Shown here piece after piece: positions 9,115 through 24,012 of a stretch of 42,047 nt of DNA (its first letter is position 1; each line of letters opens with the position of its first letter). The notes under the pieces are model-generated. The model saw only the letters and a list, made by a program, of their open reading frames with translations. It ran no database searches and was not told where the DNA came from. The position numbers and the translations under genes are program-made. Source of the stretch: Halorientalis persicus (GTDB lineage Archaea; Halobacteriota; Halobacteria; Halobacteriales; Haloarculaceae); contig NZ_FOCX01000026.1 in the NCBI RefSeq assembly GCF_900110215.1, forward strand, positions 1 through 42,047, read 5' to 3'.

Positions 9115-9188
9115 AGCCAGGGCGGGGATTTGAACCCCGGAACTCCCGATTACAAATCGGGTGCTTGGACCGCCCAAGCTCCCCTGGC
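9115..9188 (-). tRNA. tRNA-Thr (anticodon UGU)
   Basis: The 74 nt fold into a complete cloverleaf: acceptor GCCAGGG/CCCTGGC, D stem GCTT/AAGC, anticodon stem CCCGA/TCGGG around loop TTTGTAA (anticodon TGT, reads ACA), variable region AGTTC, and T arm CGGGG-TTCAAAT-CCCCG. Discriminator base is T, as expected for archaeal tRNA-Thr. CCA is not encoded. It lies between the end of an unknown gene (9288) and the promoter element of the next operon, away from any other RNA gene. Presence among accessory genes suggests either a cargo tRNA or an old integration site. Confidence 0.95.
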
Positions 9189-9287: not shown

Positions 9288-10016
9288 CTAGGCGGTGGCT
9301 CTGGATTGGTTCGCTCGGATGAGGTCCCGATCGACGTCGACCGAGACGACGAAGCCATAGTCGGTTTCTCTGCCGTCGATGACCTTTCCGAGTTGTGCGG
9401 CGAGCCACTCGACCCGCGAGAACGTACACGGTGCGGTGAAGTCCTCGCGAGAGAGGACCCATTCGCCGACCGTTTCTGCCCAGTAGTGCAGCAGTTCTGT
9501 CGAGTCGCGTTCTGCGAGGTCCGTGATCAGCGGTTCGGGATCCCATTCTTCGGCAGCGCCCATTTTCTGCTCTGCTTCCCAGTGGACGATGTCTTCGATG
9601 ACGTTGTAGCGGTTGTCGAAGGAGAGCCGGCCAAGTGCATCGATCCGGTCGTAGAGGGCTCTGCTTTCGGGTGTCCCGTCCTCGGGATGAAGTTCGATGA
9701 TATCGTGAACCATCCCGTCGTAGAGGTGGACCCACTCACGGTCGTCGGCTTCGAGTATCTGCTGGATGGTCTGGTTGACGTCGTGGGGGAGGCCGTTGGC
9801 GTCGAGGTACTCCTTGAGTTCACGGTTAGAAGCGTCCGAGAGTGAGTCGAGTGGCGGTTTGCCTCTGTCTTTTCGTCCTTGATTGATCGATTTGAGGGCG
9901 TCTTCGTGGTCTAGATTCGGGGCGTGTTCGAATCGATCTTGGACGTCGAAATCGAGTCGGCGCATGAACTTCGCGAACGTCTCGATGGTGTAGTGGTTTC
10001 CAGTTCTGATGGTCAT
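9288..10016 (-). CDS. Unknown acidic protein
   Basis: A protein of 242 residues, largely helical, beginning MTIRTGNHYTIETFAKFM. Segments such as EEWDPEPLITDLAERDSTELL and the C-terminal VVSVDVDRDLIRANQ are visible, but no family is recognised. The frame extends 83 codons upstream in Arg/Thr-rich sequence typical of non-coding frames, so ATG 10016 is preferred. It follows the operon at 10109-11723 with a 92-nt gap and may be its last gene. Confidence 0.66.
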   Translation of the reverse strand: MTIRTGNHYTIETFAKFMRRLDFDVQDRFEHAPNLDHEDALKSINQGRKDRGKPPLDSLSDASNRELKEYLDANGLPHDVNQTIQQILEADDREWVHLYDGMVHDIIELHPEDGTPESRALYDRIDALGRLSFDNRYNVIEDIVHWEAEQKMGAAEEWDPEPLITDLAERDSTELLHYWAETVGEWVLSREDFTAPCTFSRVEWLAAQLGKVIDGRETDYGFVVSVDVDRDLIRANQSRATA

Positions 10017-10108
10017 GTCTGTGTTTGTGGCGCTGGTTGTGGTGGTGAGAGTCGATGACAATCGGAGAGCTGTGCTAGTGGCTGCTGAGGATCGGCGGCG
10101 GCGATTGG

Positions 10109-10477
10109 TTACTCGTCGTCGCGAACCGGGATCGGTGGGACGGCTTCTGTTCGCCGAGTGAGCATCCCGAGGAGAACGAGTTCGGCTGTTCTGCGGTGGC
10201 CGAATGATTCGATTGAGTCGTGGGTCTCTTGCCCGTTGAAGGGATCGGAAAGGCTCACTTGCCAATCCCCGTGGGCTTCGTAGACGCGTCCGACACGCGT
10301 GCCGTGATCTGACCAGTGCGAGTTGTCTTCGAGGTCGTCGGCCCGTACTTCGGTCATCTCGTCAGTTCTGGTGATGAGTCGCCACGGGCCGGGAAGGACG
10401 GCTTCCCTGAATGGTCCAAGGTCGATCTCGATGTCTGCACTTTCGGGGATGTCTGGATGGGTGATTGATTGAGGCAT
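10109..10477 (-). CDS. Unknown protein
   Basis: A protein of 122 residues starting MPQSITHPDIPESADIEI. It reads as a beta-rich domain (GPWRLITRTDEMTEVRADDL, HGDWQVSLSDPF) with a C-terminal helix (RRTAELVLLGMLTRR). No family recognised. ATG 10477 is 2 nt after the upstream stop, pointing to coupled translation. Confidence 0.64.
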   Translation of the reverse strand: MPQSITHPDIPESADIEIDLGPFREAVLPGPWRLITRTDEMTEVRADDLEDNSHWSDHGTRVGRVYEAHGDWQVSLSDPFNGQETHDSIESFGHRRTAELVLLGMLTRRTEAVPPIPVRDDE

Positions 10478-10479
10478 GG

Positions 10480-10944
10480 TCACTTGAGGCGACGGTTGCG
10501 CCAGTCGTCGAGGATTGGTTTGATTGTCTGGAGCGCGGTTTCGACCTGCTCTGCATCGGGACTGCCGTTGGTGCCGTCTGCTGCTTCGATCAGCGTCTGA
10601 AGGGCGCTGATCGGAACTGGGGCGAGCCCACTGAACGGCTCGTCGACGTCGTGCTGGGCACTGGCAATTGTGAGACTCCTGCCTTCGTGGACGAGCAGCG
10701 TCGAACATTCTTGGCAGTACAGATACACGCCGCCTTCTGCGAAGAGCGGCCGTTCTCTGGCCTGCTCGTAGCCAGTGAACTTGTAGCTCGCAGTGTCGGG
10801 GGAGAGATCGACGCTGCGATCAACCGGGCGAGCGCTGCCTTTGTTGACACTGAATACGGGGAGTTCCAATGCTACTGCTCCGCAATTTGGACAGTGCAAC
10901 GACTCATCTTCCGAATTTGAGTTTGTTGCGTTGTTGTCAGGCAT
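10480..10944 (-). CDS. Zinc-ribbon protein, unknown function
   Basis: A protein of 154 residues. CPNCG near the N-terminus pairs with CQEC some 55 residues later to form a likely zinc ribbon; the C-terminal half is helical (ISALQTLIEAADGT, AEQVETALQTIKPILDDWRN). Its start overlaps the upstream gene by 8 nt, the same overlap length as in several other gene pairs here. Function unknown. Confidence 0.68.
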   Translation of the reverse strand: MPDNNATNSNSEDESLHCPNCGAVALELPVFSVNKGSARPVDRSVDLSPDTASYKFTGYEQARERPLFAEGGVYLYCQECSTLLVHEGRSLTIASAQHDVDEPFSGLAPVPISALQTLIEAADGTNGSPDAEQVETALQTIKPILDDWRNRRLK

Positions 10945-11461
10945 GGATCGGTTCTAGTTTTTCTCGCAGGGAGTCTAGTCGTTCGACCTGTTCGCTGTAG
11001 CCGTTGCCGTCGATGCTGTCGAGAACGCCGTCGAGAACGGCGACGAACTCGCTGTAGTCCTGTTGCCACATCAGCTGTTGCTCATTGGTCGCGCAGGCAT
11101 CTTCGACAGTGCCGATGACTTCTTCGACAGCATCGTCCGGGATGCCTTCGTGGGCCCGCATGGCCAACTCGAACGATTCGACGATGTCTGGGAAGTTGAT
11201 GGGTTGCTCCGACTCGGTATCGTAGCCGGTGCTGGTGACCGATGCGCCGTCGAACTCGGCGATTTTCTCTCGGAATCTACTCTGGTCGTATTTATCGCCG
11301 ATGACCTCGATCCCGTAGCGGACAGCGGCCGCTTCGACAGGCACGTCGGTTTCGGACTTGACACTGGCCCCGCTAAATTCGGCGACCAGCTCCCGGAACG
11401 TGCCCTGTGTCGGCTGTTCGCCACGGACGATCACCGAGTAGGGGACGAGTCCGTCAGTCAT
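10937..11461 (-). CDS. Unknown protein with an internal duplication
   Basis: A protein of 174 residues. Residues about 8-38 and 48-78 are copies of one unit: YSVIVRGEQPTQGTFRELVA and YGIEVIGDKYDQSRFREKIA are each followed by EF.GASV. This suggests a tandem repeat of a small beta-alpha unit. The C-terminal half is helical. The start overlaps the upstream gene by 8 nt. No known family. Confidence 0.68.
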   Translation of the reverse strand: MTDGLVPYSVIVRGEQPTQGTFRELVAEFSGASVKSETDVPVEAAAVRYGIEVIGDKYDQSRFREKIAEFDGASVTSTGYDTESEQPINFPDIVESFELAMRAHEGIPDDAVEEVIGTVEDACATNEQQLMWQQDYSEFVAVLDGVLDSIDGNGYSEQVERLDSLREKLEPIHA

Positions 11462-11723
11462 CGGAGACAGCCTTGTTCCCCCAGTCGCTGAGGCCGGCCT
11501 GATCGGTGAGGACCTGCGTGGCTTCGAGAACCTTGTCGTTGCCCGTCTTCCGCAGGACCATTCCTTTGTACCGCTCTTCGCCGTGGGCCTCGGCCTTGCG
11601 TTCGAGGAAGTTCTTGGCCTCTTCTTCGGTGTCGAAGAAGGGATTGGCCATGTCCTCGCCGAACTTCGTGTGGGTGAGGACGCCGTTGCTGCCGCTCCAG
11701 TAGTACTGCTCTCTGTCAGTCAT
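11454..11723 (-). CDS. Small unknown protein, first gene of operon
   Basis: A protein of 89 residues (MTDREQYYWSGSNGVLTHTK...). It contains a strand-helix-strand unit with TEEEAKNFLERKAEAHG, recalling other tiny proteins in the window. ATG 11723 was chosen because the upstream extension is Arg/Pro-rich shadow of the next gene. The promoter element at 11750-11757 is centred about 32 nt upstream. Confidence 0.66.
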   Translation of the reverse strand: MTDREQYYWSGSNGVLTHTKFGEDMANPFFDTEEEAKNFLERKAEAHGEERYKGMVLRKTGNDKVLEATQVLTDQAGLSDWGNKAVSDD

Positions 11724-11749
11724 TGCTGAACACTCCACTCCCCCTGATG

Positions 11750-11757
11750 GCGAAAAA
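11750..11757 (-). promoter_or_regulatory. GTTTYTCGC-type promoter element
   Basis: TTTTTCGCC on the coding strand; T-tract centred about 32 nt before ATG 11723, leaving a short leader. Confidence 0.65.
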
Positions 11758-11778
11758 TACTGCTCAGTTGCCGGTTGG

Positions 11779-13020
11779 TCACTGATTCGGGAGCGTCGTC
11801 TGTGTTGTCCTAGATTCCGACGCGGCCGGTTGGCCGGCCGATGCGCTTGTTTGCTCTGCTTTTGGTCCGGTCGGGAGCGACCGGGAGGAGGTTGCAGGAT
11901 GAGTGCCGATTGCTCGCTCTCGGCGGTCGCGTACCGCGTCCCAGTGGGAGAGTGCGGCCGTCCGACAGTGCCGACAGCCTCTCGTCCGTGGATCGGGACT
12001 GGGCGCCCCCGGATCGATCTGCCGCCCGCAGACACACTCGAGGAGCTGGTAGTCGGCGGCTGCTCTGTCTCGGTTGTTTGCTCCCCAGTCGGCAAGACTG
12101 GTCACGGAGACGTTCGAGCCGGCCCGATCTGTGCTGTCGTGGGGCCGATCCAGCAGGTTGGTGAGGCGATTTCGGTAGTCTAGGTATGTGATGAGGTAGT
12201 TCTCCCACGAGCATCGTGGGAATCCGGGCTTGCGATATGCCAGCCACTCGTCGCGCCACTCTGGCCCGTCGTGAGCGGTTGTCGTCGCGTCGGTGTAGAG
12301 GTTCTGCTCCCAAGCGTTGGAATCGACAGAATCCAGTGCGTTTCGGACGGCTGGTGATTCGAGAACGGACTGCTTGACTCCAAACCCGTGGAGCGAAACA
12401 CGCTCGGGGAGCGCTTCCCGTACTCGGAGGATAGTGTTCTTGATCTCGGCATCTTGGCCGCGGCGACAGACGGATCCAAGCCCGACGTAGTCGGTGATGA
12501 GCCCGTAGTCGGCTAACTCGTCAATGTGTTCGAGGTAGTCACGGATGTCGTAGCCTTGGACGACGGCCATGGGCTCAGCATCAATATCGCGCGTCTCGTA
12601 GGCTTCTAACTGCAGGATGTGGTCCCGCGTGGTCCACTCCTGGTGTGTGCTGACTGTCCGACCATATTCGGACAAAAGTGATGGCTCGCACGCCCAGTCT
12701 CGGAGCGCAAACCGACTGATGCAGTCGTCGTGTTCGGCGACGAAATCAAGATGCTCGGTCACCGTGCTGTCGTAGGATCCGGTCTGGGAGAGGGTCGAGT
12801 AGCCGCCCGAATCGAGAATCCACTCCGGTCCAGGCCACGGCTCGTTCATTTTGGATGCGAACGATACCATCAGGTGTTCTGGCTCTGGAAACCGACTGGC
12901 GTCAAGCTCGCTGTTGACGATCACGGACTCGGTGGTATCTGCCTGCGAAAGAGCCCGGAGCGCTTTTCGTTGCGATCCTGACGAAACTGTCCAGTAAAAG
13001 TCGAGTGTGTCGCTGTGCAT
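11779..13020 (-). CDS. TGT/DpdA-like nucleic-acid guanine transglycosylase
   Basis: A protein of 413 residues. Residues 60-240 show the tRNA-guanine transglycosylase (TGT) barrel in the form seen in DpdA proteins: WILDSGGYS with Asp70, VQGY at 154-157, GLGSVCRR at 180-187, HGFGVK at 211-216, and SVDSNAW with Asp233, the expected second catalytic Asp. DpdA enzymes swap guanine in DNA for preQ0. Near the C-terminus a CVC...CRHC cluster could bind zinc; the last 60 residues are low complexity. It is distant from the archaeosine tRNA enzyme (no PUA domain, different motifs). It is transcribed alone from an element at 13041. The TGT fold is clear; DNA as substrate is inferred from similarity to DpdA, and tRNA cannot be excluded. 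Confidence 0.82.
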   Translation of the reverse strand: MHSDTLDFYWTVSSGSQRKALRALSQADTTESVIVNSELDASRFPEPEHLMVSFASKMNEPWPGPEWILDSGGYSTLSQTGSYDSTVTEHLDFVAEHDDCISRFALRDWACEPSLLSEYGRTVSTHQEWTTRDHILQLEAYETRDIDAEPMAVVQGYDIRDYLEHIDELADYGLITDYVGLGSVCRRGQDAEIKNTILRVREALPERVSLHGFGVKQSVLESPAVRNALDSVDSNAWEQNLYTDATTTAHDGPEWRDEWLAYRKPGFPRCSWENYLITYLDYRNRLTNLLDRPHDSTDRAGSNVSVTSLADWGANNRDRAAADYQLLECVCGRQIDPGAPSPDPRTRGCRHCRTAALSHWDAVRDRRERAIGTHPATSSRSLPTGPKAEQTSASAGQPAASESRTTQTTLPNQ

Positions 13021-13040
13021 TGTCGCTGGGCATCTCGCGG

Positions 13041-13048
13041 GCGAAAAA
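13041..13048 (-). promoter_or_regulatory. GTTTYTCGC-type promoter element
   Basis: TTTTTCGCC on the coding strand; T-tract centred about 26 nt before ATG 13020. Confidence 0.7.
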
Positions 13049-13362
13049 GCAGTCAGAGGAATGGCAGCAGGATGCCAGCCAGAATGCTGTTAACCTACAA
13101 TCGGGGTTGTTGGTTAATGACTGGGTTCTGATTTGACGAAAGAGATTTTCAAAATCGAGAATCTGGTTCCGGGTATCATCCACTTTCTGTCTGGCATTTT
13201 TCGGCAGGATAGCAAAACCATTTTCACTAGCGAGAACGAGAGTCAAAATGCGGCCTGCCTACACCGGTCGTACGGATGGATGAGCTCCAAAGGAGCGTGT
13301 GACTCCGGGGAGTTTCACCCCGGATTTTGACCTACTGGCTGGCCGGAGATATGCTTGTGGAC
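13049..13362. other. Gene-free stretch with two hairpins
   Basis: This interval, lower in GC than its neighbours, lies between the DpdA-like gene's promoter and the end of the Mom-like gene. One minus-strand frame (TTG at 13246) is open through it but runs out of frame into the DpdA-like gene and has no good start. The right end holds two perfect hairpins (13284-13323). No gene is supported; it may be the remnant of an inserted element. Confidence 0.5.
13284..13323. repeat. Two adjacent perfect hairpins
   Basis: First: GCTCC-AAA-GGAGC (13284-13296). Second: CCGGGG, 7-nt loop, CCCCGG (13305-13323), followed by ATTTTGACC on the plus strand. They lie 40 nt after the stop of the Mom-like gene. 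Could be a transcription terminator or the hairpin end of a degraded IS200/IS605-type element; neither is proven. Confidence 0.5.
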
Positions 13363-14274
13363 TCAGATTGACGCTTCCCAGCGGCGCTTGGTCCAGTTTT
13401 CGTCGACGCTCGTTTCCCCGCTGTCCAGTGAAAGCGTCTTGGTGTGTTCGAAACCTGCACCGGCGTAGCAGATACCTCGGTTTCCGTCGACGCCTGCGAG
13501 CGCGATGAGCCGACTAATCTCGGTATTGTGGCGGAGCCAGCCTCGGATTCGACCGAGCATCCAACTGGACGTGTTCGGTGGCCGATTTGGATGGTTTGCG
13601 AGCCGAGTGAGATATCGTGTCTGATTGTAGTCGGCGATCTCGCGATTGTGTCCATGCTCGAGAACAGCGACGGAAATGAGATGCCCGTCATAGACGGCCC
13701 CGAAGGCGTGGCGGAAGCCGTCGACGCCGAGTAGTCGGTGATCGACGCGGCCGTCTGGCCCGCCCGCGAGGAACTGGTTAACCGTGCGGAGTGCCCCCTC
13801 GCCTTCGAGATGGTGGAAATCGAGGGCCTTGGCGGCTGGTGCGGTTGGCACGTTGGTCCGCGGTGGTTCCCAGCGCGAGAATATCCAATCCGGCTCGTCG
13901 CCACACTCGGCTGCGGATCGCGGGAAGTCCGGCATTTCCGGTGGTGGACTGGTTCGCCACTCGTGGCCGGGCCCGTGCAAGTCTTTGATCATGGACTCGG
14001 TTTCTGGGAGGCGATGCTCGAAGCGAATGGTGGTGTTGGAGCCGTCGTATGCGACCGTGTCGACGACGTGCCGTCGGTATTCCGCGCGGACCTCGCGGAG
14101 GCAACTCGTCGTCTGGCCGGTCTCCAGCTGTCGCTTGCGAGTGTCTGTGACCGTCCGGTGAAAGAGATGGTCGCCAGGAGCGATTGATGACGGTGGATGA
14201 GAGACCGTCACCTCGTCTTCTGTTCCAGCATCGATGGCTGTGAGAGCGCTTACGCATCCGTATCGGAATGCCAT
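13363..14274 (-). CDS. Mom-like GNAT-fold protein
   Basis: A protein of 303 residues. The first 150 include an ASCH/PUA-like portion (VSHPPSSIAPGDHLFHRTVT). Residues about 180-285 read as a GNAT domain of the phage Mu Mom type: FGAVYDGHLISVAV, YLTRLANHP, SWMLGRIRGWL, ICYAGAGFEHT. Mom modifies adenine in phage DNA and protects it from restriction; several phages and archaeal viruses encode relatives. ATG 14274 is fixed by a GTTTCTCGC element centred 23 nt upstream; the longer open frame to 14400 includes that promoter. Its location next to TGT-like genes supports a DNA-modification role. A general GNAT acetyltransferase acting on another substrate remains possible. Confidence 0.7.
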   Translation of the reverse strand: MAFRYGCVSALTAIDAGTEDEVTVSHPPSSIAPGDHLFHRTVTDTRKRQLETGQTTSCLREVRAEYRRHVVDTVAYDGSNTTIRFEHRLPETESMIKDLHGPGHEWRTSPPPEMPDFPRSAAECGDEPDWIFSRWEPPRTNVPTAPAAKALDFHHLEGEGALRTVNQFLAGGPDGRVDHRLLGVDGFRHAFGAVYDGHLISVAVLEHGHNREIADYNQTRYLTRLANHPNRPPNTSSWMLGRIRGWLRHNTEISRLIALAGVDGNRGICYAGAGFEHTKTLSLDSGETSVDENWTKRRWEASI

Positions 14275-14291
14275 GGTCTGTTCTCCAGCCA

Positions 14292-14299
14292 GCGAGAAA
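14292..14299 (-). promoter_or_regulatory. GTTTYTCGC-type promoter element
   Basis: GTTTCTCGC on the coding strand; T-tract centred about 23 nt before ATG 14274, deciding that start. Confidence 0.7.
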
Positions 14300-14396
14300 C
14301 TGCTCCAGTGCGGTTGGTTGGGATGTTCTGGGAGCGCGATGCTTGGGCCGCCAACACCCGTGTCTTCAGCGCGAAAAAGCGCGGCCGCTCGACGGG

Positions 14397-14903
14397 TCAT
14401 TCAAGCGACAACCAGTGCCGCGCATACCGTTCAATCTCGTTAAGTGAGATTTTTGTCGCCTTGAGATCAGCTGTTCGCTGAGAGAGTCTGGCTTCTGGTA
14501 GTCCGTTGTCGACTGCTGCTGGCTGGTACCATTCTGCCGTGAGGTCTTGGTATTCGTCGAAAACTGGATCGCTAGACATTCCTTCATCAGTATATATCTG
14601 CGTTGGCTGACCAAGGATGAGAGCGTGGCTGAGGATGATACCTGCTGCGAAGCCTAAATGTCCTTCCAGAGACAGGAACATACCAATACCACTGGCTGTT
14701 TCGGTCCCCGAGAGTACAAACTCATCACCATCGTCTTTGAGTGTCATTTCATAGTCGCGCTGCTGGGCTGTTAGGCCTGCTGGGAGATCGATTTCTGTGT
14801 CTGATGTGTAAGAAACTCTGACATCTGCGAGTTCGTTGTTGATTAGGCTCTCTAGTTCTTCGTCGGGAGCGTAGGGGTCTCTGGTGATTTGGCTATCGGG
14901 CAT
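14397..14903 (-). CDS. Unknown protein
   Basis: A protein of 168 residues. It has a beta-rich N-terminal half (TDEIDLP-type and EMTLKDDGDEFVLSG segments), a Gly/Ala-rich hydrophobic stretch (GHLGFAAGIILSHALILG) and a helical C-terminus. No family recognised. Its codon use is more AT-rich than that of the flanking genes, hinting at a separate origin. No GTTTYTCGC element is seen before the ATG. Confidence 0.62.
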   Translation of the reverse strand: MPDSQITRDPYAPDEELESLINNELADVRVSYTSDTEIDLPAGLTAQQRDYEMTLKDDGDEFVLSGTETASGIGMFLSLEGHLGFAAGIILSHALILGQPTQIYTDEGMSSDPVFDEYQDLTAEWYQPAAVDNGLPEARLSQRTADLKATKISLNEIERYARHWLSLE

Positions 14904-14968
14904 GAGAAGATGTTTGCGGCAGTGTTCACAGGTTTTTCGTGTTCATCTTGATACTCTTTGGGTCTGAG

Positions 14969-15973
14969 TCATGCCCAATGTTTGTTTGTGGCTTCCTCTG
15001 CAATGTGGATATGGACTGTGTGGTGATCCCACGCATCTCCTGGGTGTGATCCAATCTTTTTTACGGCCTGTTCGGTGGACTTTCTGCCTGTTTCATCTTC
15101 AAGATCTGCGTGCTCGATGCGTTGGCGGGCAGGGCTAGCATTAATCTCGAGTTTGCGTTGTTGCCATTCTCCGAGTCCTGATTCCCACCGAAGTTCTTGG
15201 ATGGCTCGGTCGACTAATTCTTCCTCATCGCTATCGAAAATATACCCGAACCGGGTTGACCTGAGTCGTTTGGCTAGGTCTTCGGCTGTCTGATCTGCAA
15301 CGGTCACGTCGACTTGATTGACTCCGTCGCTATCTCGCAAAAGGTCAGTGACAGCTGCAGCGACATGGTAAGGATTGTGACCAGGCGCATAGACTGTCCA
15401 ATCACGGAATCGAGCGTATCCTTCGTTTTGCACTCTGGCGCTAAACTCGCAAGGGAGACGTCCACCAGCACGAGTGACGGCATCTGCAATTTCGTCAGTG
15501 AGAGGACTAGACGCTGAATCTCGCTTGTATACTCCATCTCCACGTGGGTCTTCTGGTCTTGTGTTTCGGTAGTCTTCTGTTGTTTCTTTCTCGTATCCTT
15601 CGGGCGGCTCATTGGTGTCTGCGGCGTGGAGGGGATCTGTTTCTTCTTTGGTTTCGTTGACGCCAATCCGGGCCAACCAGTCGTGTAAGACTGCCCGCCC
15701 TGATCGTTTGGGATTGTGTGGATGGAGTGCGACGAATGATATCGAATCCTCGCTTGGTCTGGTACCGGCTTTAAGAGTAATTCCAGCTAGCTCGTCGCGG
15801 TAGCGCATATTCCTTTTGTATGGAGTGGCGCCTTCACCCGACGGAACGAGTCGCCGGGAGCCGTCTCGCGCCGGTTTTTCACCCGCAATCACCTCATAGT
15901 CCGGCTTGGTACTGTTGTTGGTCTCTCCGCCGTCAGTCATTGCTTTGGATCTGCTATTAGCTCTTTTAGTCAT
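14969..15973 (-). CDS. Unknown protein
   Basis: A protein of 334 residues. A basic start (MTKRANSRSKAMTDGG) leads to a polar N-terminal third, then a domain with AVLHDWLARIGV and a C-terminal segment with repeated His (DHHTVHIHIAEE). GVNQVDVTVADQTAEDLAK suggests a beta-alpha domain. No family recognised. ATG 15973 has AAGGAGAA upstream; ATG 15940 is possible. Relatively AT-rich codon use like the neighbouring gene. Confidence 0.64.
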   Translation of the reverse strand: MTKRANSRSKAMTDGGETNNSTKPDYEVIAGEKPARDGSRRLVPSGEGATPYKRNMRYRDELAGITLKAGTRPSEDSISFVALHPHNPKRSGRAVLHDWLARIGVNETKEETDPLHAADTNEPPEGYEKETTEDYRNTRPEDPRGDGVYKRDSASSPLTDEIADAVTRAGGRLPCEFSARVQNEGYARFRDWTVYAPGHNPYHVAAAVTDLLRDSDGVNQVDVTVADQTAEDLAKRLRSTRFGYIFDSDEEELVDRAIQELRWESGLGEWQQRKLEINASPARQRIEHADLEDETGRKSTEQAVKKIGSHPGDAWDHHTVHIHIAEEATNKHWA

Positions 15974-16031
15974 GTTGCCTTAATTCTCCTTCTGATGTTC
16001 GCTAATTGAATGCAGTCCATAAATTGATAAT

Positions 16032-16898
16032 TCACTCTTCTACTGCTTTACCTCGCTTGCTGGTGGCTTGTGTTCCTGTTTGAGTGCTGTCGACCATCTG
16101 CTGGACTTCGCCGAGTGTGGTCTGATCGTGGTAGGCTGAGACGACGTCGTCGTCAACCTGCGGACCGAGCATGTAGTTCAGCATGATCAGGACGGCAGAG
16201 GCGAAGTTGGACCGGACGGTCGTTGAGTCGGTCCCCTGTGGAATGTAAAACGGCGTCTGCTTCCACGATTTGTCTGGGATGACCGAGTTCTTGAGGGCCC
16301 GCTCTGCGGTTGAGATGTCGATCGAATCAAGGAAGGGCCGATCTCGGCGGAGAGCTTTGACCATCTCGAGGCTTGTTCCGACGCCGAAGCCGTGGACGTG
16401 GACGTGTTCGCCGGCAACTTCTCGGAAAGCTTCGATGGCGTCGATCTGCTCTTGCGTGGATTCGAACTGCTGGAGACCGCCGAGTGCGAAGTGAGAAAAC
16501 TCTGAGTAGAAGTCGGCGTGTGCGGCGTAGTGGTCTGCATACGGTGGTTGGATCGGTGCCCAGACCTTCGCGTGCGTGTCTGCTTCTCGGACTAGCGGGA
16601 GGAACTCTTTGGTGGATTCGAGAGTTCGCGTCGGCTGGCCGACAAAGTCTTTCGGGATGATGATGTCGGCGTCGAATTTCTCGGCGGCTTTGATCACGTC
16701 TTCGTTGGACACTGAGGGGTCCTCGAAGTTCGAGTCGATGATGAGTTCGTAGCAGGAGTCTCGCACGCCGTCGGTGGCTTTCTCGCAGTGTTGGAGCTTG
16801 TATGGGTACCCGTATCGCGGCCAGTAGGAGGCGGCGAATACCCGGATGGGATTCTTCGCGATGATCTCCATCCGTTCTTTCATCTCCCGCCACATCAT
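16032..16898 (-). CDS. TGT-like protein, paralogue A
   Basis: A protein of 288 residues, made almost wholly of a TGT/DpdA-like barrel: ELIIDSNF with Asp55 at the position of the first catalytic Asp, FALGGL at 137-142, HVHGFGVG at 167-174 and DSIDIS with Asp194 at the second Asp position. It aligns along its length with the gene product at 17690-18805. It lacks an obvious zinc site. Start ATG 16898 overlaps the upstream stop as ATGA. As last gene of a four-gene operon with its paralogue, it may form a heteromer, as eukaryotic TGT subunits do. Substrate (DNA or RNA) is inferred, not shown. Confidence 0.75.
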   Translation of the reverse strand: MMWREMKERMEIIAKNPIRVFAASYWPRYGYPYKLQHCEKATDGVRDSCYELIIDSNFEDPSVSNEDVIKAAEKFDADIIIPKDFVGQPTRTLESTKEFLPLVREADTHAKVWAPIQPPYADHYAAHADFYSEFSHFALGGLQQFESTQEQIDAIEAFREVAGEHVHVHGFGVGTSLEMVKALRRDRPFLDSIDISTAERALKNSVIPDKSWKQTPFYIPQGTDSTTVRSNFASAVLIMLNYMLGPQVDDDVVSAYHDQTTLGEVQQMVDSTQTGTQATSKRGKAVEE

Positions 16899-17662
16899 CG
16901 TCCGTCACCTCTGTTGTCGCCCGTCTGTGCTCTGAACGGTTGCTCGAGTGCCCAGTGATCGGTTGCTGGGTCGATCGTTTCCGTGTCGGCCCCACGTTCG
17001 GTGACGATGCCGGTGTGGAACAGACAGCCTTTCAGCTGTGAGATAGGTTCGCCCCGGTAGTTCGAGCAGTCCGTGAGGTCGACGTCTTCGACGGCTTGCC
17101 GGTTGCTGTTGCTGTCAGCCCGGAGAAAGAGTCGTGCTGTCCGTTGCTCGTCTTTTTCGGCGAGCGTTTCGACGAGTTCTGGAAGTGTCAGTGGCCGGTC
17201 GTAGTTTCGGAGGGTGGAAATGATGAACTCTGCAGGCTCGTAGGTCGCGAAGACGCGCTGGGCGGTGTCTTGCCACGCTGGGAAGACATTACAGAACCGT
17301 TTGGGCGATCCGTGAAGGCCGTCGAACGTGGTGAGGGCGGCTTCTGCGCTGCCGTGGATCTTGACGCCGGCGGCGACGACGTGATCACCAAGTGGAGTGC
17401 AGGCACCGTCTGGTGTGAGCAGTCCGAGTTCGATAGCGCCCTGTTTCGCCCGCCCGGGGAGGCTCACGAGATGCTGTCGCACGAGTGCGCCGGTCTGGCC
17501 GGACCCGACGACGGCTAGCGGGACGCCGAGGTAGTTTTTCGGATGCGAAAACGAGAGTTCCGTCACGCGTGGCGGCCGCTGTCGCGCCTGTTCAATTTCG
17601 AGCGAAACGGTGGGCGTGGACCTGGCAGCTGCCACTGTTGCTGAGTCTTGGTTTGCGGTCAT
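16895..17662 (-). CDS. Unknown protein between two TGT-like genes
   Basis: A protein of 255 residues with no family I recognise. Visible segments: a beta-rich N-terminal region (PTVSLEIEQARQRPP, VTELSFSHPKNYLGV), GSGQTGALVRQHLVSLPGRAKQGAIEL which looks like a helical DNA-binding-type stretch, and a later winged-helix-like part (YDRPLTLPELVETLAEKDEQR). ATG 17662 has an AGGAG SD; the stop overlaps the next ATG. Its fixed place between two TGT-like paralogues makes it a candidate partner subunit or target-recognition protein. Confidence 0.68.
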   Translation of the reverse strand: MTANQDSATVAAARSTPTVSLEIEQARQRPPRVTELSFSHPKNYLGVPLAVVGSGQTGALVRQHLVSLPGRAKQGAIELGLLTPDGACTPLGDHVVAAGVKIHGSAEAALTTFDGLHGSPKRFCNVFPAWQDTAQRVFATYEPAEFIISTLRNYDRPLTLPELVETLAEKDEQRTARLFLRADSNSNRQAVEDVDLTDCSNYRGEPISQLKGCLFHTGIVTERGADTETIDPATDHWALEQPFRAQTGDNRGDGR

Positions 17663-17689
17663 CTGTTTCTCCTGTGAGCGACAAACTGG

Positions 17690-18805
17690 CTAGTCGTCGC
17701 CGAACGCGCCCAGGTGTTGCTGTGTGGTCGCGTCTTGAGCGAATGGAGTGACGAGGCGAACGTCCTCGATGAGTCGGCTACTGGCTTGGGCGGCGACAAC
17801 CGACAGTCGTTCGTCGCCAGCCTTCACCGACGTATCGAAGTCGCGGATTGGGGTGCTGTAGTCCAGTGAATCCAGCAGGTCGGGATCGTCGCGGATTGCG
17901 GTCGCGAGTGGCGGCGTGAGGCCAAATCCGAGCCCGTGCAGGTGGGCGTCGTCACCGATGACGGCCCGGACTTCGCGAGCGGCGCTGAGCTTCGGCTGAT
18001 CTGTGTTCTCGTTTTTGAGCCCGCCGATGGCGAAGGCGAAATCCGAGATGCCGTGGTCGAGTAGCCGGTCGGCACACTCGCCGAATGGCGGTTGCAGTGG
18101 GAGGATCACCTCGCCGTCGTACTCGTGGGATTCGAAGTGGGCAACGCCGTCAACGAGTGCGTCGACGGTGGCTTTCATGTCGTGCCAGACGTCGGCCAGG
18201 ACGACGGCGTCGGCTCCGAGGTCGGCGGCCGTATCCAGCGCGTCGGTGTTGTTGATCGACTCGTCTTTGAACGAGCTGTCAACGATATACTCTGAGCAGG
18301 CATCTCGGTAGGAGCCGGTGGCCTCGTGGACTGGCTGGATTCGACTCGGCCAGAACATCCGCTGCCCGTCGTTTCCACCGAGAATTACGTCAACGTAGGC
18401 GGCTTCTAGAAGCGTATACAAATGTTTCCCGCCGACGGGTGCCCCTGACAGGTCGTATAACTCGGTCACAAGGGCAGGTTCTCGCCGCGGGGTCAGCCCG
18501 AGGTCGTAGACGAGCGCAAGCAGATCGTCTTGTGAGAAGGGCTTGCCGTCCTGTGGAGGGCGACCGATTTCCTCTCGAATGGCATCGTACAGGTGGCGTT
18601 TGGTTTTCCCGCTTGGATTGATATCGTACGCGGCGGCGATTTCTTCGACGTGTGACCGCAGGAAGTAGATAGCGGCTGTCGTATTGGATTCGCTGTCGAG
18701 AACTCGCTCGCGGAAGGGGAACTTGAAGTAGTCACCAAGTTGGATTCGGAGGTCGACCGGGCGCGGTGACTTGTTCTGAGACGGTGCCTTGCTCAGACTA
18801 CTCAT
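17690..18805 (-). CDS. TGT-like protein, paralogue B, with possible SAP-like N-terminus
   Basis: A protein of 371 residues. Residues about 45-100 contain YDINPSGKTKRHLYDAI, which recalls SAP/HeH-type helix-extended-helix DNA-binding units. Residues about 150-320 form a TGT/DpdA-like barrel: EYIVDSSF with Asp176, FAIGGL at 258-263, HLHGLGFG at 288-295 and DSLDYS with Asp315. It is clearly related to the protein at 16032-16898. ATG 18805 overlaps the upstream stop as ATGA. A possible DNA-binding module joined to a base-exchange fold supports a DNA substrate, but the SAP call rests on one short pattern. Confidence 0.75.
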   Translation of the reverse strand: MSSLSKAPSQNKSPRPVDLRIQLGDYFKFPFRERVLDSESNTTAAIYFLRSHVEEIAAAYDINPSGKTKRHLYDAIREEIGRPPQDGKPFSQDDLLALVYDLGLTPRREPALVTELYDLSGAPVGGKHLYTLLEAAYVDVILGGNDGQRMFWPSRIQPVHEATGSYRDACSEYIVDSSFKDESINNTDALDTAADLGADAVVLADVWHDMKATVDALVDGVAHFESHEYDGEVILPLQPPFGECADRLLDHGISDFAFAIGGLKNENTDQPKLSAAREVRAVIGDDAHLHGLGFGLTPPLATAIRDDPDLLDSLDYSTPIRDFDTSVKAGDERLSVVAAQASSRLIEDVRLVTPFAQDATTQQHLGAFGDD

Positions 18806-19194
18806 GACTGTTCCTCTCCGCTGTTGGCGTCTTGCTCGGCGGCTCGGACGAAACCCTGCTTTTCGAGACGGCTGTCCCAACTACTGATGAACTGCTGGAC
18901 TTCCATCAGTCCCGATTCGTCGAAGCGTTGCTTCCCGAGTGGATGGTGGATATATTCGACGGGCCGCCACCTATCGTCTGTCTCTTTGAACGTGATCTCG
19001 GGATCGCACATCTGGTCGCCACGCTGGATGTAGTAGTGGCCGACTGCGACGAGATCGTCACCGATCCGCTCGATGGTGAGGTCCTCGAATGCCGGCGGTG
19101 AGACCGTGACTGGATCGTTGACTTCGAGGTCGTCTATCGAGTCGATGCCGTGAGCGGCGAGAATTTGCCGAATGGTTCCCATCGGGAATTGCAT
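18802..19194 (-). CDS. DUF6908-like protein, first gene of the TGT operon
   Basis: A protein of 130 residues beginning MQFPMGTIRQILAAHGID. The core (LTIERIGDDLVAVGHYYIQR, DPEITF, WRPVEYIHH) resembles DUF6908, a small domain common on plasmids and phages, of unknown function. ATG 19194 is chosen because the promoter element is centred 24 nt before it; upstream ATG 19206 and the frame start at 19251 overlap or precede the element. Its stop overlaps the start of the paralogue B TGT gene. Confidence 0.62.
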   Translation of the reverse strand: MQFPMGTIRQILAAHGIDSIDDLEVNDPVTVSPPAFEDLTIERIGDDLVAVGHYYIQRGDQMCDPEITFKETDDRWRPVEYIHHPLGKQRFDESGLMEVQQFISSWDSRLEKQGFVRAAEQDANSGEEQS

Positions 19195-19212
19195 ATCTCG
19201 GGCCATTCGGGA

Positions 19213-19220
19213 GCGAGAAA
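19213..19220 (-). promoter_or_regulatory. GTTTYTCGC-type promoter element of the TGT operon
   Basis: TTTCTCGC on the coding strand; T-tract centred about 24 nt before ATG 19194. It would drive the four genes 19194 to 16032. Confidence 0.68.
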
Positions 19221-19265
19221 TGTGGAGTCGTCTAGCGGAACAGAACTTCACAACCGCGAACTTCG

Positions 19266-20255
19266 CTACTGGGCTGCTGGCTCGAAAACGTCGGATTCGT
19301 GGATTTCCTCCACTCGTTTGAGGATTCCTCGTCCTGTTGTGGAGGTGGCCTCAGCTAATTCTACCACTGGAATGTGAGTGCCGGCAGTGTCTTCTCTTGC
19401 TGCGAGCAAGAGGCAGGTAGCCGCCATCACTTCGGGATCTTTCCCAGAACTGTAGCCGACATCGAATGCGGCATCAGCGATCTCGATTGCCCGATGCTCA
19501 ACAGAGTGTTCGACGTCGAGCTTCGATGTGAGAGGCGGGATGAACTCCCGTGGCCGGCGTGGTGGGATGGGGAGTTCTGTGTCTTCGACGACTGCCCGGT
19601 AGGCCCTGCGAACTTGGTCCAGTGAGACCTGAGCTTCTGAGGCAACTTCGACGAGTGTGCGTGGCAGGCGGTTGAGCCTGATCGTCGCGTAGACGACGAC
19701 GGCGGCGATTGTGTCGATCCCGTAATTTGGGAGGAAGCCGCGGCTCTCGCAGTCTCTGAGCAGTTGCCCCGCCTGCTCCCGGTAGTTGGACGGTAGGTCT
19801 AGCGCGGAGATGAGGCGATTGACTTCGCCGTGAGCGGAGGCGAGTGCAGTATCCTCGCTGTCGAGTTGCGCTTTCCGGTGGTGCTTTCGTAGGCGAGTGA
19901 GCCGAGCTTGTTTGTGACTGGGGACGACGTTTGTTGACTGTCCGATTACCGTTGTGAGTCCGTCGTCGTGTCGACTCTTCGTTGTCGTTTCTCGGGCGTC
20001 TTTGGGCTGTATTTCACCGTCTGGCTCTGCGTATTCGGGATTGTATTCGAGTGAGGACCCACCTTCGATGAGGCGTCCACACTCTTCGCAACAGACGTCG
20101 CCGTCAACTACGCGGAGAGCACCGCTACAGTCGGGACAGGAGTCAGTATCGAGATGATGACTCTCTCCCTCTTCCGTGTGTTCTGTTGCTGTTGCGTTGT
20201 CCTGAGACGATTCGGAAACTGATGCATCTTCTTCGAGTTCTCGAAAAGAGACCAT
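19266..20255 (-). CDS. tfb: Transcription initiation factor IIB (divergent TFB)
   Basis: A protein of 329 residues with archaeal TFB architecture: zinc ribbon C40-x2-C43 and C56-x2-C59 (CPDCSG...CEECGRLIEGG), a linker, then two cyclin folds (about 130-220 and 235-320). The first includes YGIDTIAAVVVYATIRLN; the second includes DPEVMAATCLLLAARED and a recognition-helix region (VVELAEATSTTGRGILKRVEE). TFB recruits RNA polymerase and reads the BRE next to the TATA box. The protein is divergent, especially in that last helix. Haloarchaea encode many TFBs with different promoter preferences, so this one may serve the GTTTYTCGC promoters. It has such an element 31 nt upstream of its own start. Confidence 0.88.
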   Translation of the reverse strand: MVSFRELEEDASVSESSQDNATATEHTEEGESHHLDTDSCPDCSGALRVVDGDVCCEECGRLIEGGSSLEYNPEYAEPDGEIQPKDARETTTKSRHDDGLTTVIGQSTNVVPSHKQARLTRLRKHHRKAQLDSEDTALASAHGEVNRLISALDLPSNYREQAGQLLRDCESRGFLPNYGIDTIAAVVVYATIRLNRLPRTLVEVASEAQVSLDQVRRAYRAVVEDTELPIPPRRPREFIPPLTSKLDVEHSVEHRAIEIADAAFDVGYSSGKDPEVMAATCLLLAAREDTAGTHIPVVELAEATSTTGRGILKRVEEIHESDVFEPAAQ

Positions 20256-20280
20256 AGAGAAAAACCTCAGCCTTCAGGGA

Positions 20281-20288
20281 GCGAGAAA
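20281..20288 (-). promoter_or_regulatory. GTTTYTCGC-type promoter element of the TFB gene
   Basis: TTTCTCGC (preceded by GT-T) on the coding strand; T-tract centred about 31 nt before ATG 20255. If the TFB acts here it would be autoregulated. Confidence 0.65.
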
Positions 20289-20342
20289 ACGGATTGCACT
20301 TGGCGAGAAGGGGTCCCGTTCTTGACGTTCGTTTGCGCTCGA

Positions 20343-20825
20343 TCAATCAGGTTGATACTCAGGGATATCGAGTGATCGAAGCGCGGCTTGTTGCCGGATC
20401 GCGATGAGGTGCGCGCAGATTCCTTCTGACTGGAACATGAGACAGCTGCACCAACCATGGCCAGCGGTCCACTGTTGCCCGTCCGTGTGTTGCGCTTCGC
20501 CGTGGGCGGCATCTGGCGAGCGAGAGAGTGAGCAGTTGTGGGCGGTTGGTGTGTCGTCGGGTTCGGTCGGCGGAACGACGACGAAGAGGTCGGGGCGGTT
20601 CCCCTGCCTGATCTCGTACCTGGTCTCGAGAGTGTGTTGCCAGAGCTCTGTCTCCGTCTCCCGTGCAGCAGCAAAATCGACTGGCGCGTGTCCGTCTGGG
20701 AGCCTTGAGACGATTGGCTCGCTGCGAGTCCCATCTGGTCCTGAATTCGGACCTGATGCCGTCTCTCTTTGGCTAGCGTCCTGGTCGCTTGTCGTGGTCT
20801 GTGGCTGGGACTCTGCTGTTTTCAT
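20343..20825 (-). CDS. SWIM zinc-finger protein
   Basis: A protein of 160 residues. The C-terminal part carries the SWIM motif CxC...CxH: C126-S-C128 then C137-A-H139 (WCSCLMFQSEGICAH), followed by a helix. SWIM domains bind zinc and take part in DNA or protein binding, for instance with recombination factors and MuDR-like transposases. The N-terminal half is polar with one likely beta-alpha segment. Start ATG 20825 is followed upstream by an AT-rich stretch, so it seems to have its own conventional promoter. Confidence 0.78.
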   Translation of the reverse strand: MKTAESQPQTTTSDQDASQRETASGPNSGPDGTRSEPIVSRLPDGHAPVDFAAARETETELWQHTLETRYEIRQGNRPDLFVVVPPTEPDDTPTAHNCSLSRSPDAAHGEAQHTDGQQWTAGHGWCSCLMFQSEGICAHLIAIRQQAALRSLDIPEYQPD

Positions 20826-21199
20826 GGGTGAGCCCGTCTACGAATATCTAGCGTTCCCAACACAATAGAACTAGGCATCTGTCCTTTGCTCTAGAGGTCG
20901 CTTGGCCGGGTCTTGGGAAGTTAATACTGTCTTGAGATAATCGCAGTATATGATTTGATGGGCACCGTGACGAAAATTTGCACAAAGACTTTGATATCCA
21001 CCGGTCAACATCCGGATGCTCAGTTTATCGCTGAGCAGACCGCCAACGCCGCCGAAACTGATTCATCATCCACGCACGACTGTCTGTGGCTCTTCATCGG
21101 TGCCACAGATGGCCGCTTCTTGGCTGGTTCCCGAATCTTCTGTAACAGAGGATGAACTGAGGGCCAGTTTGAAGTAGTTTCCTGTGTTGGTACGCTTTG
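20826..21199. other. Gene-free divergent intergenic region
   Basis: This 374-nt stretch separates the minus-strand SWIM gene from the plus-strand gene at 21200 and must hold both promoters. A 66-codon plus-strand frame (20955-21155) lies inside it; it has no recognisable domain or SD and is not called. I see no RNA gene or long repeat. Confidence 0.5.
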
Positions 21200-21583
21200 A
21201 TGCCCGAACAACTGAGTAGTAGTGTCACCTACGAGGAACAGGCTGGAGTTGGAATTTGGACGATCGCTGACCTTGACGAGGCGCTTGAGTCTGGGGAACT
21301 GGAAGCGGGAGAGGACCATTTCCGTGAGCGGGCTGGATCTCCGGATATGGATGGCGTTGTCATCCATATTGAGGAAGTGGACACGGCTGGGGCATCGAAT
21401 ACTCTAGAACACGTTGAACAGGAGTGGACCGAGTTGGCAAACGAGACTGGGATTGCTCGAACCGCATACGTCGCTGATGGGCTTGCTCGGATGGCGATTG
21501 CTCAGCGGAATCAGGCTGAAGAGTGTGAGACCAAAGGCTTCTCCGAGTTTGATGAGGGCCTTGAGTGGGCCCAGAACGCCTGA
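21200..21583 (+). CDS. SpoIIAA/STAS-like small protein
   Basis: A protein of 127 residues, one of only two plus-strand genes. It alternates strands and helices (SVTYEEQAGVGIWTI, MDGVVIHIEEVDT, ARTAYVADGLARMAIAQRN), resembling the SpoIIAA/STAS-like family found widely in haloarchaea, whose role is unclear. ATG 21200 is used rather than TTG 21197. TTTGAAGTAG about 23-32 nt upstream could serve as TATA box. It converges on the gene ending at 21600 with only 16 nt between. Confidence 0.6.
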   Translation: MPEQLSSSVTYEEQAGVGIWTIADLDEALESGELEAGEDHFRERAGSPDMDGVVIHIEEVDTAGASNTLEHVEQEWTELANETGIARTAYVADGLARMAIAQRNQAEECETKGFSEFDEGLEWAQNA

Positions 21584-21599
21584 CCAGACTGCCAACTAG

Positions 21600-22040
21600 T
21601 TAGTCTGCTTCATTTGCCCTGCTTGTCTGCCGCTCTGGATTACTGTCGAGCGTGGTGTGTTCGATGTGACCGTCGGGCCAGACAGCATATACAGAAGCGA
21701 GGAAGGGGAACCGACACTTTTCGCGTCCGATAGTTTGGATGACGAGCTTTTCCTCGAGGAATGGCGCGATGCTTTCAAGGAACTCGTAGGTGGACTCGTC
21801 TTCGAGGTCTGGTTCCCGGTCGATATACGACTCTTTGATCTTCTGGGGCTGGAAGTGAGCGTAGCCGTGGAGTTCGAGAACGGCTTTGCCGTCGCTGGCT
21901 TCGTCCTCGTGAGCGAGGACGGTGAGAGACTCGTGGGCGCCAGAGAAGTCGAAATGGCTGATGACTTTGTTCAACTCGTCGATCTGGTCAGCGTCGATTT
22001 CGGGTCGATTTGACGCAGTTGCTGCTTGGAATGTAGCCAT
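21600..22040 (-). CDS. Unknown protein
   Basis: A protein of 146 residues starting MATFQAATASNRPEID. The middle is beta-rich (SLTVLAHEDEASDGKAVLEL, KLVIQTIGREKCRFPFL, VYAVWPDGHIEHT). No family recognised. The open frame continues far upstream but is Arg-rich shadow; ATG 22040 is set by a promoter element centred 26 nt before it. Single-gene unit. Confidence 0.66.
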   Translation of the reverse strand: MATFQAATASNRPEIDADQIDELNKVISHFDFSGAHESLTVLAHEDEASDGKAVLELHGYAHFQPQKIKESYIDREPDLEDESTYEFLESIAPFLEEKLVIQTIGREKCRFPFLASVYAVWPDGHIEHTTLDSNPERQTSRANEAD

Positions 22041-22060
22041 GGTGTGCGGGCCTTTCGCAG

Positions 22061-22068
22061 GCGAAAAA
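22061..22068 (-). promoter_or_regulatory. GTTTYTCGC-type promoter element
   Basis: GTTTTTCGCC on the coding strand; T-tract centred about 26 nt before ATG 22040. Confidence 0.7.
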
Positions 22069-22111
22069 CAGGGGGCGTCTGAGTGTGGTACTGATGCCTC
22101 TGAATGGGTGC

Positions 22112-22672: not shown

Positions 22673-22693
22673 GGTACTCGCGCTCGTCTGGAG

Positions 22694-22701
22694 GCGAGAA
22701 A
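22694..22701 (-). promoter_or_regulatory. GTTTYTCGC-type promoter element
   Basis: GTTTCTCGCC on the coding strand; T-tract centred about 27 nt before ATG 22672. Confidence 0.7.
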
Positions 22702-22731
22702 CTGGACTTTGTGCGACTAGGGGATCGCCAT

Positions 22732-24012
22732 TCATCGACTGGCGTCGTCGAGTGTGACCTGCGTGGTTCGACTAGCGACAGATTCTTCGCTGGTACTGCC
22801 GAGAGTCTGCGGTTCGCAGTGCTGTTGGCGGCTGTCTGTCTCGGTTTCGGGCGTGATCGTCTGCTGGATTGTGTTCTCTTCGAGAGCGGCCGCAGCCTCC
22901 TGTTGGCGGCGCTTGACCGAAGCCGCGACTTGGCTGGCCCGGCCTTGGCACGTTTCGCAGAGTGTTTGCTGGCAGCTGTCCGCGTCGGCAATCCGTTCCC
23001 GCAGGTCGGTATGAGACATTCCGCCGTGACCGATGTAGCAGGTTTCATCGAGTCGTCCTCGCTGGATGGCCTGCTCTTTGTCGACTGCAGCGATGCTGTC
23101 GAAGATGCCGGGATACTCGTTTTTGAGGACGGTGAGTCGCATCGGGTTGGGCTTGGTCTGTTTCCGAAGCGAACTCACCTCTTCGTAGATGTCGGGATGT
23201 TCGTCTTCCAGCAGATAGACGCGACCGCGGTATTCTTGCACGCGCTGCTCCGTATTCAGTAACCATTCGGCGTGGTCTGGGAATTTTGCTTGGAGGTTGA
23301 CGAGTTCCTCGTCGCGATGGCCGTAGGCGAGACAGAAGCAGTCGCCACTGCGGTGGATCTTTCGGGCGACGGGGTTACGCGGGAGGTTGTGACGGCCGCG
23401 ATACTTGGCGACCCACTCATCGGATTTGTCGATGAGTGGTGAGAGCCACCAACCGCGGAAGTTGCCACCGTTTGAAGGATCTTCGTACTGGACTTCGGCT
23501 TCGATGTTTTCCATACGGCGATCGGATTCGAGGCGACGGACGCCAGAGAAGTACTTCACGCCGCCGGCCCGATGCCGGCTGAAGTAGCCCAGTTGCCGCC
23601 CCTTGAAGTAGATATAGGCCTGCCGGTGGAGGCTTGGACCGGGGAACGCGTACCGGTAGGCGAACAGGTCGAACGGCATCGGCGAGGAGATGATGAAGAA
23701 GGGCCAGTTGAACTTCTTACATATTTCCCGCACGTAGTCGATATTTGCCGGCAGCGATGAGTTCGTTGCAAGATGGATAACGAAATCCGCCATGTCGTTC
23801 TCCATGGCGAGATGGGTGAGGGCGAGCGAGTCATCCCCTCCAGAGAAGAGGACAGCGCGGTCTTTTCCACCGCCGACGCCAGAGGTATCGAGAACGCGGC
23901 TGATCTCCCAGATGTCCACGGGATCTGAGCTTGGTTCTGGTTTCGAGAGATGCTCGGACTGGACAGTTTCCTCTGGTGGTCCGATTTCCTCGTAGCCGTC
24001 GAGTTCGATCAT
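22732..24012 (-). CDS. PAPS-reductase/DndC-like PP-loop protein
   Basis: A protein of 426 residues. A PP-loop SGGDDS at 57-62 (AVLFSGGDDSLALTHLA) and a GVRRLESDRR motif identify the adenine nucleotide alpha-hydrolase superfamily, near PAPS reductase and DndC. Such proteins activate a substrate with ATP or reduce/transfer sulfur. Further Cys residues occur as GDCFCLAYG, ETCYIGHGG and CQQTLCETC, which could hold zinc or an iron-sulfur cluster. The last 50 residues are polar. It is the second gene of a two-gene unit, 3 nt after the gene at 24016. No other dnd gene is present, so phosphorothioation is not indicated; a role in tailoring a modified base is a reasonable guess. Confidence 0.8.
   Translation of the reverse strand: MIELDGYEEIGPPEETVQSEHLSKPEPSSDPVDIWEISRVLDTSGVGGGKDRAVLFSGGDDSLALTHLAMENDMADFVIHLATNSSLPANIDYVREICKKFNWPFFIISSPMPFDLFAYRYAFPGPSLHRQAYIYFKGRQLGYFSRHRAGGVKYFSGVRRLESDRRMENIEAEVQYEDPSNGGNFRGWWLSPLIDKSDEWVAKYRGRHNLPRNPVARKIHRSGDCFCLAYGHRDEELVNLQAKFPDHAEWLLNTEQRVQEYRGRVYLLEDEHPDIYEEVSSLRKQTKPNPMRLTVLKNEYPGIFDSIAAVDKEQAIQRGRLDETCYIGHGGMSHTDLRERIADADSCQQTLCETCQGRASQVAASVKRRQQEAAAALEENTIQQTITPETETDSRQQHCEPQTLGSTSEESVASRTTQVTLDDASR

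Follow-up and report, generated by a model that had tools for sequence, protein, structure and literature searches.

Results

Three TGT-superfamily genes on a haloarchaeal contig

The stretch of DNA analysed here (the window, 42,047 bases) is the complete contig C33, NZ_FOCX01000026.1, of the Halorientalis persicus genome, which amounts to 4.87 Mb in 121 contigs; most of its long open reading frames (ORFs) are carried on the minus strand. Within 7 kb it holds three genes for proteins of the tRNA-guanine transglycosylase (TGT) superfamily, named here P1, P2 and P3, and a gene for a partner protein, P4. An original prediction, made from the letters of the sequence, had placed three TGT/DpdA-like ORFs at this locus, and all three are present, on the minus strand, as follows:

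11779..13020, minus strand: P1, a DpdA (PF23859) DNA-guanine-transglycosylase-like protein of 413 aa with a Cys-rich C-terminal tail, from Pfam and PHROG
16032..16898, minus strand: P2, a TGT-superfamily protein of 288 aa, with a TGT barrel in its AlphaFold2 model, from Pfam TGT and the model
16895..17662, minus strand: P4, the partner protein, overlapping P2 by 4 nt and related to the C-terminal domain of a haloarchaeal protein of ~412 aa
17690..18805, minus strand: P3, an HRTV-29-type TGT-superfamily protein of 371 aa with an N-terminal extension of ~126 aa, from tblastn and the tree

Specifically, P1 reached 93.7 bits against the Pfam DpdA family PF23859 (cut-off 27; E 1e-26), and its closest PHROG family was 1279 (E 2.8e-33). 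It fell below NF041059, the DpdA equivalog of bacterial dpd islands, with 26.1 bits against the 200 required. P2 passed the Pfam TGT threshold narrowly (29.7 vs 26.3 bits), while P3, which gave no TGT-family match in Pfam, PHROG or NCBIfam, was connected to the superfamily through the 'DpdA' of the haloarchaeal virus HRTV-29 (tblastn, 40%, E 3e-37; 42% identity over the barrel) and through P2 (32% identity, E 3.5e-24). Since neither P2 nor P3 matched PF23859, only P1 is filed as DpdA; NF041059 gave no match to P2 or P3 either. Relatives of P3 occur in tailed viruses. When viral contigs were scanned with P1, P2 or P3 as single proteins, no relatives were returned; alignment-based searches of viral contigs did recover relatives of the TGT-type proteins.

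The placement of P1 and P3 in the superfamily was made from sequence, while for P2 the prediction of a TGT barrel could be followed up by modelling. The AlphaFold2 model of P2 (pLDDT 79.4, pTM 0.79) has such a barrel, matching TGT and DpdA structures at Z 16-18. In the VIA re-alignment of this model the DpdA structure 7ui4 came first (Z 18.0, root-mean-square deviation 3.6, 216 residues), and the tRNA TGT rows were found at Z 16.6 or lower. In sequence searches of the Protein Data Bank (PDB), phmmer with P1 or with P2 gave chance-level matches only, the P3-type profile gave nothing relevant, and the best structure for the family profiles was 7ui4 at E 0.04-0.07, too weak by itself.

Active sites and lineages of the three enzymes

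The same set of active-site residues is kept in all three proteins, namely D70/D108/Q155/G182/D233 in P1, D55/D84/Q117/G140/D194 in P2 and D176/D205/Q238/G261/D315 in P3. We take this set to map to Zymomonas mobilis TGT D102 and D280 (the active-site Asp residues), D156 and Q203 (base recognition) and G230 (the GG loop). The Asp pairs that had been proposed (70/233, 55/194 and 176/315) are exact, and the HG(F/L)GxG-type block claimed for all three proteins needs a small correction, P1 reading HGFGVK and not HGxGxG. Among relatives, 23/23 rows of the P2/P3 family keep D55, D84, G140, H169 and D194 (P2 numbering) without change, and 14/14 DpdA rows do so for D70, D108, Q155, G182, H211 and D233 (P1 numbering). 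Profile-profile alignment of the P2/P3 family with DpdA gave 97.8% (E 8e-13). The likeness of the three proteins to TGT and DpdA is homology and not chance.

A 38-row tree put P3 in a supported set with the HRTV-29-type enzymes (99/95) and P2 with the P4-linked enzymes near the base, outside every supported set; the DpdA outgroup that includes P1 was separate (100/100). P1 therefore belongs to a different family, P2 and P3 are old paralogues, and on this tree the three proteins are three separate lineages and no tandem duplicates.

The zinc site offers a further distinction. The tRNA-type TGT is marked by a CxCxxC...H zinc site; P2 and P3 contain just two Cys each, and so lack the CxCxxC site. 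The Cys pairs of P1 (CxC and CxxC) are placed after the barrel.

P4 and the P3-P4-P2 operon

P2 and P3 had been described as a two-paralogue operon. The linkage stands, while the arrangement is in reality P3-P4-P2, with a third conserved protein in between: the genes are consecutive, separated by a 27-nt gap (P3/P4) and joined by a 4-nt overlap (P4/P2). P4 lies directly before P2 and overlaps it in 7/7 P4-P2 pairs, found in the window, in C37 (a sister contig of the same genome), in L085, L086, L087 and L089, and in L152, which is the Salinibaculum KK48 plasmid.

P4 is unnamed in Pfam, NCBIfam and PHROGs. P4-type sequence is present in 242/391 genomes of our panel, and the matches listed are mostly open frames of at least 400 aa. 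These point to a protein of ~412 aa (for example L123:8627-9865, minus strand), with a PD-(D/E)XK-like N-terminal part followed by a P4-type C-terminal domain, which also lacks a Pfam or NCBIfam name. When 30 full-length proteins of this kind were aligned (the same gene entering twice as L123/L060 and as L124/L066), the G, D, E-x-K and Q positions were kept in 29-30/30. From this PD-(D/E)XK motif the protein looks nuclease-like; its profile found nothing convincing in the PDB. The AlphaFold2 model of P4 was of too low a quality for use (pLDDT 47.8). The PDB matches of the P4 profile were designed armadillo repeats and were dismissed.

Recurring neighbours of the P2/P3 family

We then compared the surroundings of 39 P2/P3-family genes, a set from which L146, L147 and L141 had been removed because they duplicate L086, L087 and L001; L152 is outside this set. 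Within 300 nt, a gene for a DUF6884 protein was found at 13/39, P4 at 7/39 (window P2 and P3 both counted) and DpdA at 4/39 (L110 and L138-L140, of which L139 and L140 are near copies). In addition to the 13, L149 encodes DUF6884 and TGT as one 417-aa fusion. Counted by genome, 13/27 of the P2-bearing panel genomes have P4, DUF6884 or DpdA within the same distance. P2-type matches (27/391 genomes) and DpdA (12/391) have 4 genomes in common (p 0.006). DpdA and over-cut-off Mom (7/391) likewise have 4 in common (hypergeometric p 1.7e-5, post hoc), and in two genomes, G135 and G217, DpdA, Mom-like and DUF6884 genes lie inside ~12 kb.

Two weaker members of the P2/P3 family (L095:10647-11756 and L096:6204-7130) have a P2-like gene nearby, at 205 nt and 1.3 kb. 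In their sequences the D84 and D194 positions appear to be lost, and members of this kind would suit a possible role as helper or inactive partner subunit.

Loci with two TGT-type domains took other forms as well. In L113 (7301-9220, minus strand; genome G237) a 639-aa protein with TGT and DUF5591 (PF17884) domains, the latter presumably ArcS-type, adjoins a DpdA gene, and in L111 (7464-9647 and 9696-10604, minus strand; genome G337) two TGT-type genes coding for 727 and 302 aa stand side by side. The suggestion that three copies are unusual is borne out by the phage records matching P1, where tblastn found 399 places in 399 records, once each (390 of them mycobacteriophages), and has to be tempered for haloarchaea, in which two-copy loci recur (L085, L110, L111, L113, L138-L140).

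Candidate tailoring genes and other features

The following further features accompany the transglycosylase genes:

13280..13310, plus strand: a conserved block of 31 nt upstream of P1, with a second copy at C37:28388-28418, upstream of the second dpdA
13363..14400, minus strand: a Mom-like GNAT acyltransferase, upstream of P1 (PHROG 1384, E 9e-6)
14397..14903, minus strand: a 168-aa protein with a 38% homologue near a P2-like gene in G183 (L092)
22732..24012, minus strand: a PAPS-reductase-like PP-loop protein, with homologues in HRTV-29 and, in G283, beside P2/P4
28456..28986, minus strand: a DUF6884 (YaaA/DpdC-like) protein (Pfam E 4.5e-19; CxxxK and LSxxxG motifs)

The DUF6884 protein scored 69.4 bits against a Pfam cut-off of 30, and its motifs read ACGSSK and LSGEHG, with LSG in place of the LSA of LSAxxG; its match to the PADLOC DpdC model was weak (E 0.0057). 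PMC11888242 gives DUF6884 as one of the domains of DpdC. PMC12839542 has DpdC converting dPreQ0 (deoxy-preQ0, preQ0 being 7-cyano-7-deazaguanine) into dADG (2'-deoxy-7-amido-7-deazaguanosine), and labels its domain DUF328. Among 10 window proteins analysed with PADLOC, the dpd-island components found were the DpdA-like and the DpdC/DUF6884-like proteins only.

The GNAT is filed as Mom-like only, because its score against Pfam Mom (PF25680) is below the cut-off; relatives in L121 (43.7 bits) and L154 exceed it. Mom-like homologues accompany DpdA in C37, L114, L116 and L121, and on the viral contig L134 the DpdA and Mom-like genes overlap by 4 nt. C37 carries counterparts of DpdA (54%), Mom-like (50%), P2 (47%) and P4 (35%), and no full P3. 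The 31-nt block lies ~260-470 nt upstream of each dpdA, in two nearly identical copies that are its exactly two occurrences in the genome, and it was absent from the 19 other genomes searched (0/19).

In agreement with the earlier proposal that the host could supply preQ0, the genome contains one strong QueC-family gene (E 4e-69) and an arcTGT gene (E 2e-84), near which lies a second TGT-domain gene, taken as a putative ArcS. No preQ0 genes were found among the window proteins scanned. A dependence on host preQ0 has been proposed for HRTV-29 (PMC8651126).

The remaining window proteins include a chemoreceptor, a flagellin, VWA, AAA ATPase, TFIIB, HNH and ASCH proteins. Three features outside the modification genes were recorded:

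9115-9188, minus strand: a tRNA-Thr gene (TGT anticodon), inside the contig
29047-30369: a chemoreceptor containing PAS and MCP-signal domains (MCPsignal E 5e-49)
39642-40835: a gene for an archaeal flagellin/pilin, sharing its contig with the modification genes

A PHROG assignment of 29047-30369 as 'tape measure' was rejected as a coiled-coil artefact, the protein being the chemoreceptor. An ORF for a dual-specificity phosphatase (28005-28796, minus strand) overlaps the DUF6884 gene in a different frame; its real start is probably further downstream, because the phosphatase domain sits in the C-terminal half. Because the window proteins scanned include no capsid, portal or terminase, we call the window a mobile-looking contig of a haloarchaeal genome, rather than a virus. 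No plasmid record was similar to positions 10000-30000 at the DNA level.

Discussion

Relation to known systems

To our knowledge, DpdA systems have been described with a single transglycosylase. The window resembles the phage and bacterial dpd-island DpdA (PF23859, 7ui4) in a P1 that scores above the Pfam cut-off, in keeping identical active-site residues and in a P2 model that matches 7ui4 best; it differs in having three enzymes instead of one, two of them missed by the DpdA profile, and in that neither DpdB nor preQ0 genes were found among the window proteins scanned. HRTV-29 (Haloferuviridae) shares with the window a P3-type DpdA, a DUF6884/YaaA-like neighbour and a PAPS-reductase-like gene, whereas it has one TGT-type gene, no P4 and no Mom-like gene, and P3 adds the N-terminal extension. 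In the BRC systems (PMC12839542) a GNAT is accompanied by a TGT-type enzyme, as it is here; in contrast, no BREX-type or HerA components were found among the window proteins scanned. A further archaeal-virus type of TGT, that of HVTV-1 gp69, is presumably the one labelled 'DpdA4'; the membership of gp69 in the P2/P3 family is unsupported (E 0.14 to the P2/P3 profile). According to PMC6884629, this protein is encoded in a preQ0 cluster of a haloarchaeal virus with dPreQ1 DNA, and it shows TGT-like motifs. Our searches of the open-licence literature turned up neither a haloarchaeal locus with three TGT-type genes nor an account of P4; within that literature, the set of three genes looks like a new variation on the DpdA systems already known.

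A candidate DNA-modification arsenal

All together, these data make it probable, in our judgement, that the element directs a 7-deazaguanine DNA modification in which preQ0 from the host is inserted into DNA and further altered. Such a modification had been predicted for the element, and the setting fits it, with a DUF6884 protein as in DpdC and a Mom-like GNAT; DNA would be the substrate. Specifically, the element would rely on three non-orthologous TGT-type base-exchange enzymes, and the host archaeosine pathway would be the source of preQ0. P1 and the products of the P3-P4-P2 operon would swap DNA guanine for preQ0 through the usual covalent intermediate with an Asp nucleophile, P4 possibly being the partner that binds DNA or does the targeting. 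Next, the DUF6884 protein may act on the nitrile of the DNA-borne preQ0, to give an amide as DpdC does, and the Mom-like GNAT might add an acyl group to the modified base or to adenine. In this way the element could be hidden from host restriction, or marked as self.

Several lines of evidence argue for this reading: P1 is a Pfam DpdA, P2 has 7ui4 as its best VIA match and P3 groups with the HRTV-29 DpdA; the active-site positions are kept in all three, and P2 and P3 lack the CxCxxC zinc site; DUF6884, a domain of DpdC, recurs beside P2/P3-family genes, as do P4 and DpdA; DpdA and Mom co-occur in genomes and overlap in L134, with a GNAT + TGT precedent in the BRC systems; and the host has QueC and arcTGT.

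Other observations weigh against it. Foldseek ranks tRNA TGT first for the P2 model (E 4e-8), the best Pfam name of P2 is tRNA-TGT, and a common fold does not show which substrate P2 uses. The GNAT scores 18.7 bits where Pfam Mom demands 27.1, and the window DUF6884 gene lies 9.6-11.6 kb from P3/P2. DUF6884 is common (214/391 genomes), and near-identical DUF6884-linked loci (L106-L109) make the independent events fewer than 13. In the loci read, 14/27 P2-bearing genomes show none of P4, DUF6884 and DpdA at a distance of up to 300 nt from any P2/P3-family gene, two of these (G366 and G337) having given no strong P2/P3-family row. When the Mom threshold is set at E 1e-3, Mom is found in 49/391 genomes and in 5/12 DpdA genomes, a much weaker overlap.

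Alternative explanations

The alternative that survives best, held as a tentative second choice, is that three redundant DpdA enzymes (phage-type, HRTV-29-type and P4-linked) were acquired independently, at different times, and work each alone, by modular turnover and with no heteromer. The three lineages of P1, P2 and P3 speak for it, as do several P2/P3-family loci without a second TGT or known partner nearby and the one TGT-type gene of HRTV-29. It accounts poorly for the tight P3-P4-P2 spacing (27 nt and -4 nt), for a P4-P2 overlap kept in every pair, for DpdA adjoining a P2-like gene in L110 and L138-L140, and for the L095 and L096 family members, which sit near P2-like genes and appear to have lost active-site Asp residues.

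It is unlikely that the genes form a defence island, one that would pair a self mark on the DNA of the replicon or host with a matching nuclease (Dpd or BRC-like) instead of camouflaging a virus. In its favour, the widespread ~412-aa protein, with its invariant D, E-x-K and Q in the N-terminal part, carries at its C-terminus a domain to which P4 is related; the chemoreceptor, flagellin and VWA/AAA genes, and the lack of capsid and terminase in the proteins scanned, would also suit this explanation, as would the GNAT + TGT pair of BRC defence loci (PMC12839542). Nevertheless, no DpdB, DpdD-K, HerA, PglZ or BrxC was found among the proteins scanned (10 in PADLOC, others in further scans), and the nuclease reading derives from a motif, with nothing convincing in the PDB profile search.

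Least of all do we expect that P2 and P3 modify tRNA or other RNA, tuning translation during element activity and leaving DNA to P1: P2 does match Pfam tRNA-TGT and not Pfam DpdA, and a tRNA-Thr gene lies on the contig, but, at 288 and 371 aa, P2 and P3 are short proteins without the CxCxxC site, DpdA ranks first in the VIA match of the P2 model, the recurring partner DUF6884 is a domain of DpdC, and P3 relatives are found in tailed viruses.

Significance

Returning to the DNA-modification reading, a heteromeric enzyme built from the paralogues of the element, as had been suggested, or one targeted by P4, is possible. More specifically, P3-P4-P2 could be a heteromeric, site-directed guanine-exchange machine in which P4 is the target-binding domain that the widespread haloarchaeal PD-(D/E)XK-like protein also has at its C-terminus, an idea we put forward as a long shot. 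The element would then place 7-deazaguanine exactly where the host nuclease would cut; if true, mobile element and host would each hold one half of a modification-restriction pair, with base exchange replacing methylation.

In conclusion, three non-orthologous transglycosylases are gathered within 7 kb, together with an unnamed partner, P4, and candidate tailoring enzymes. If the modification system is real, it would supply new DNA bases, offer a natural setting in which to ask whether a DNA transglycosylase can be heteromeric or guided to a target, and open a first way to the role of the widespread ~412-aa P4-domain protein.

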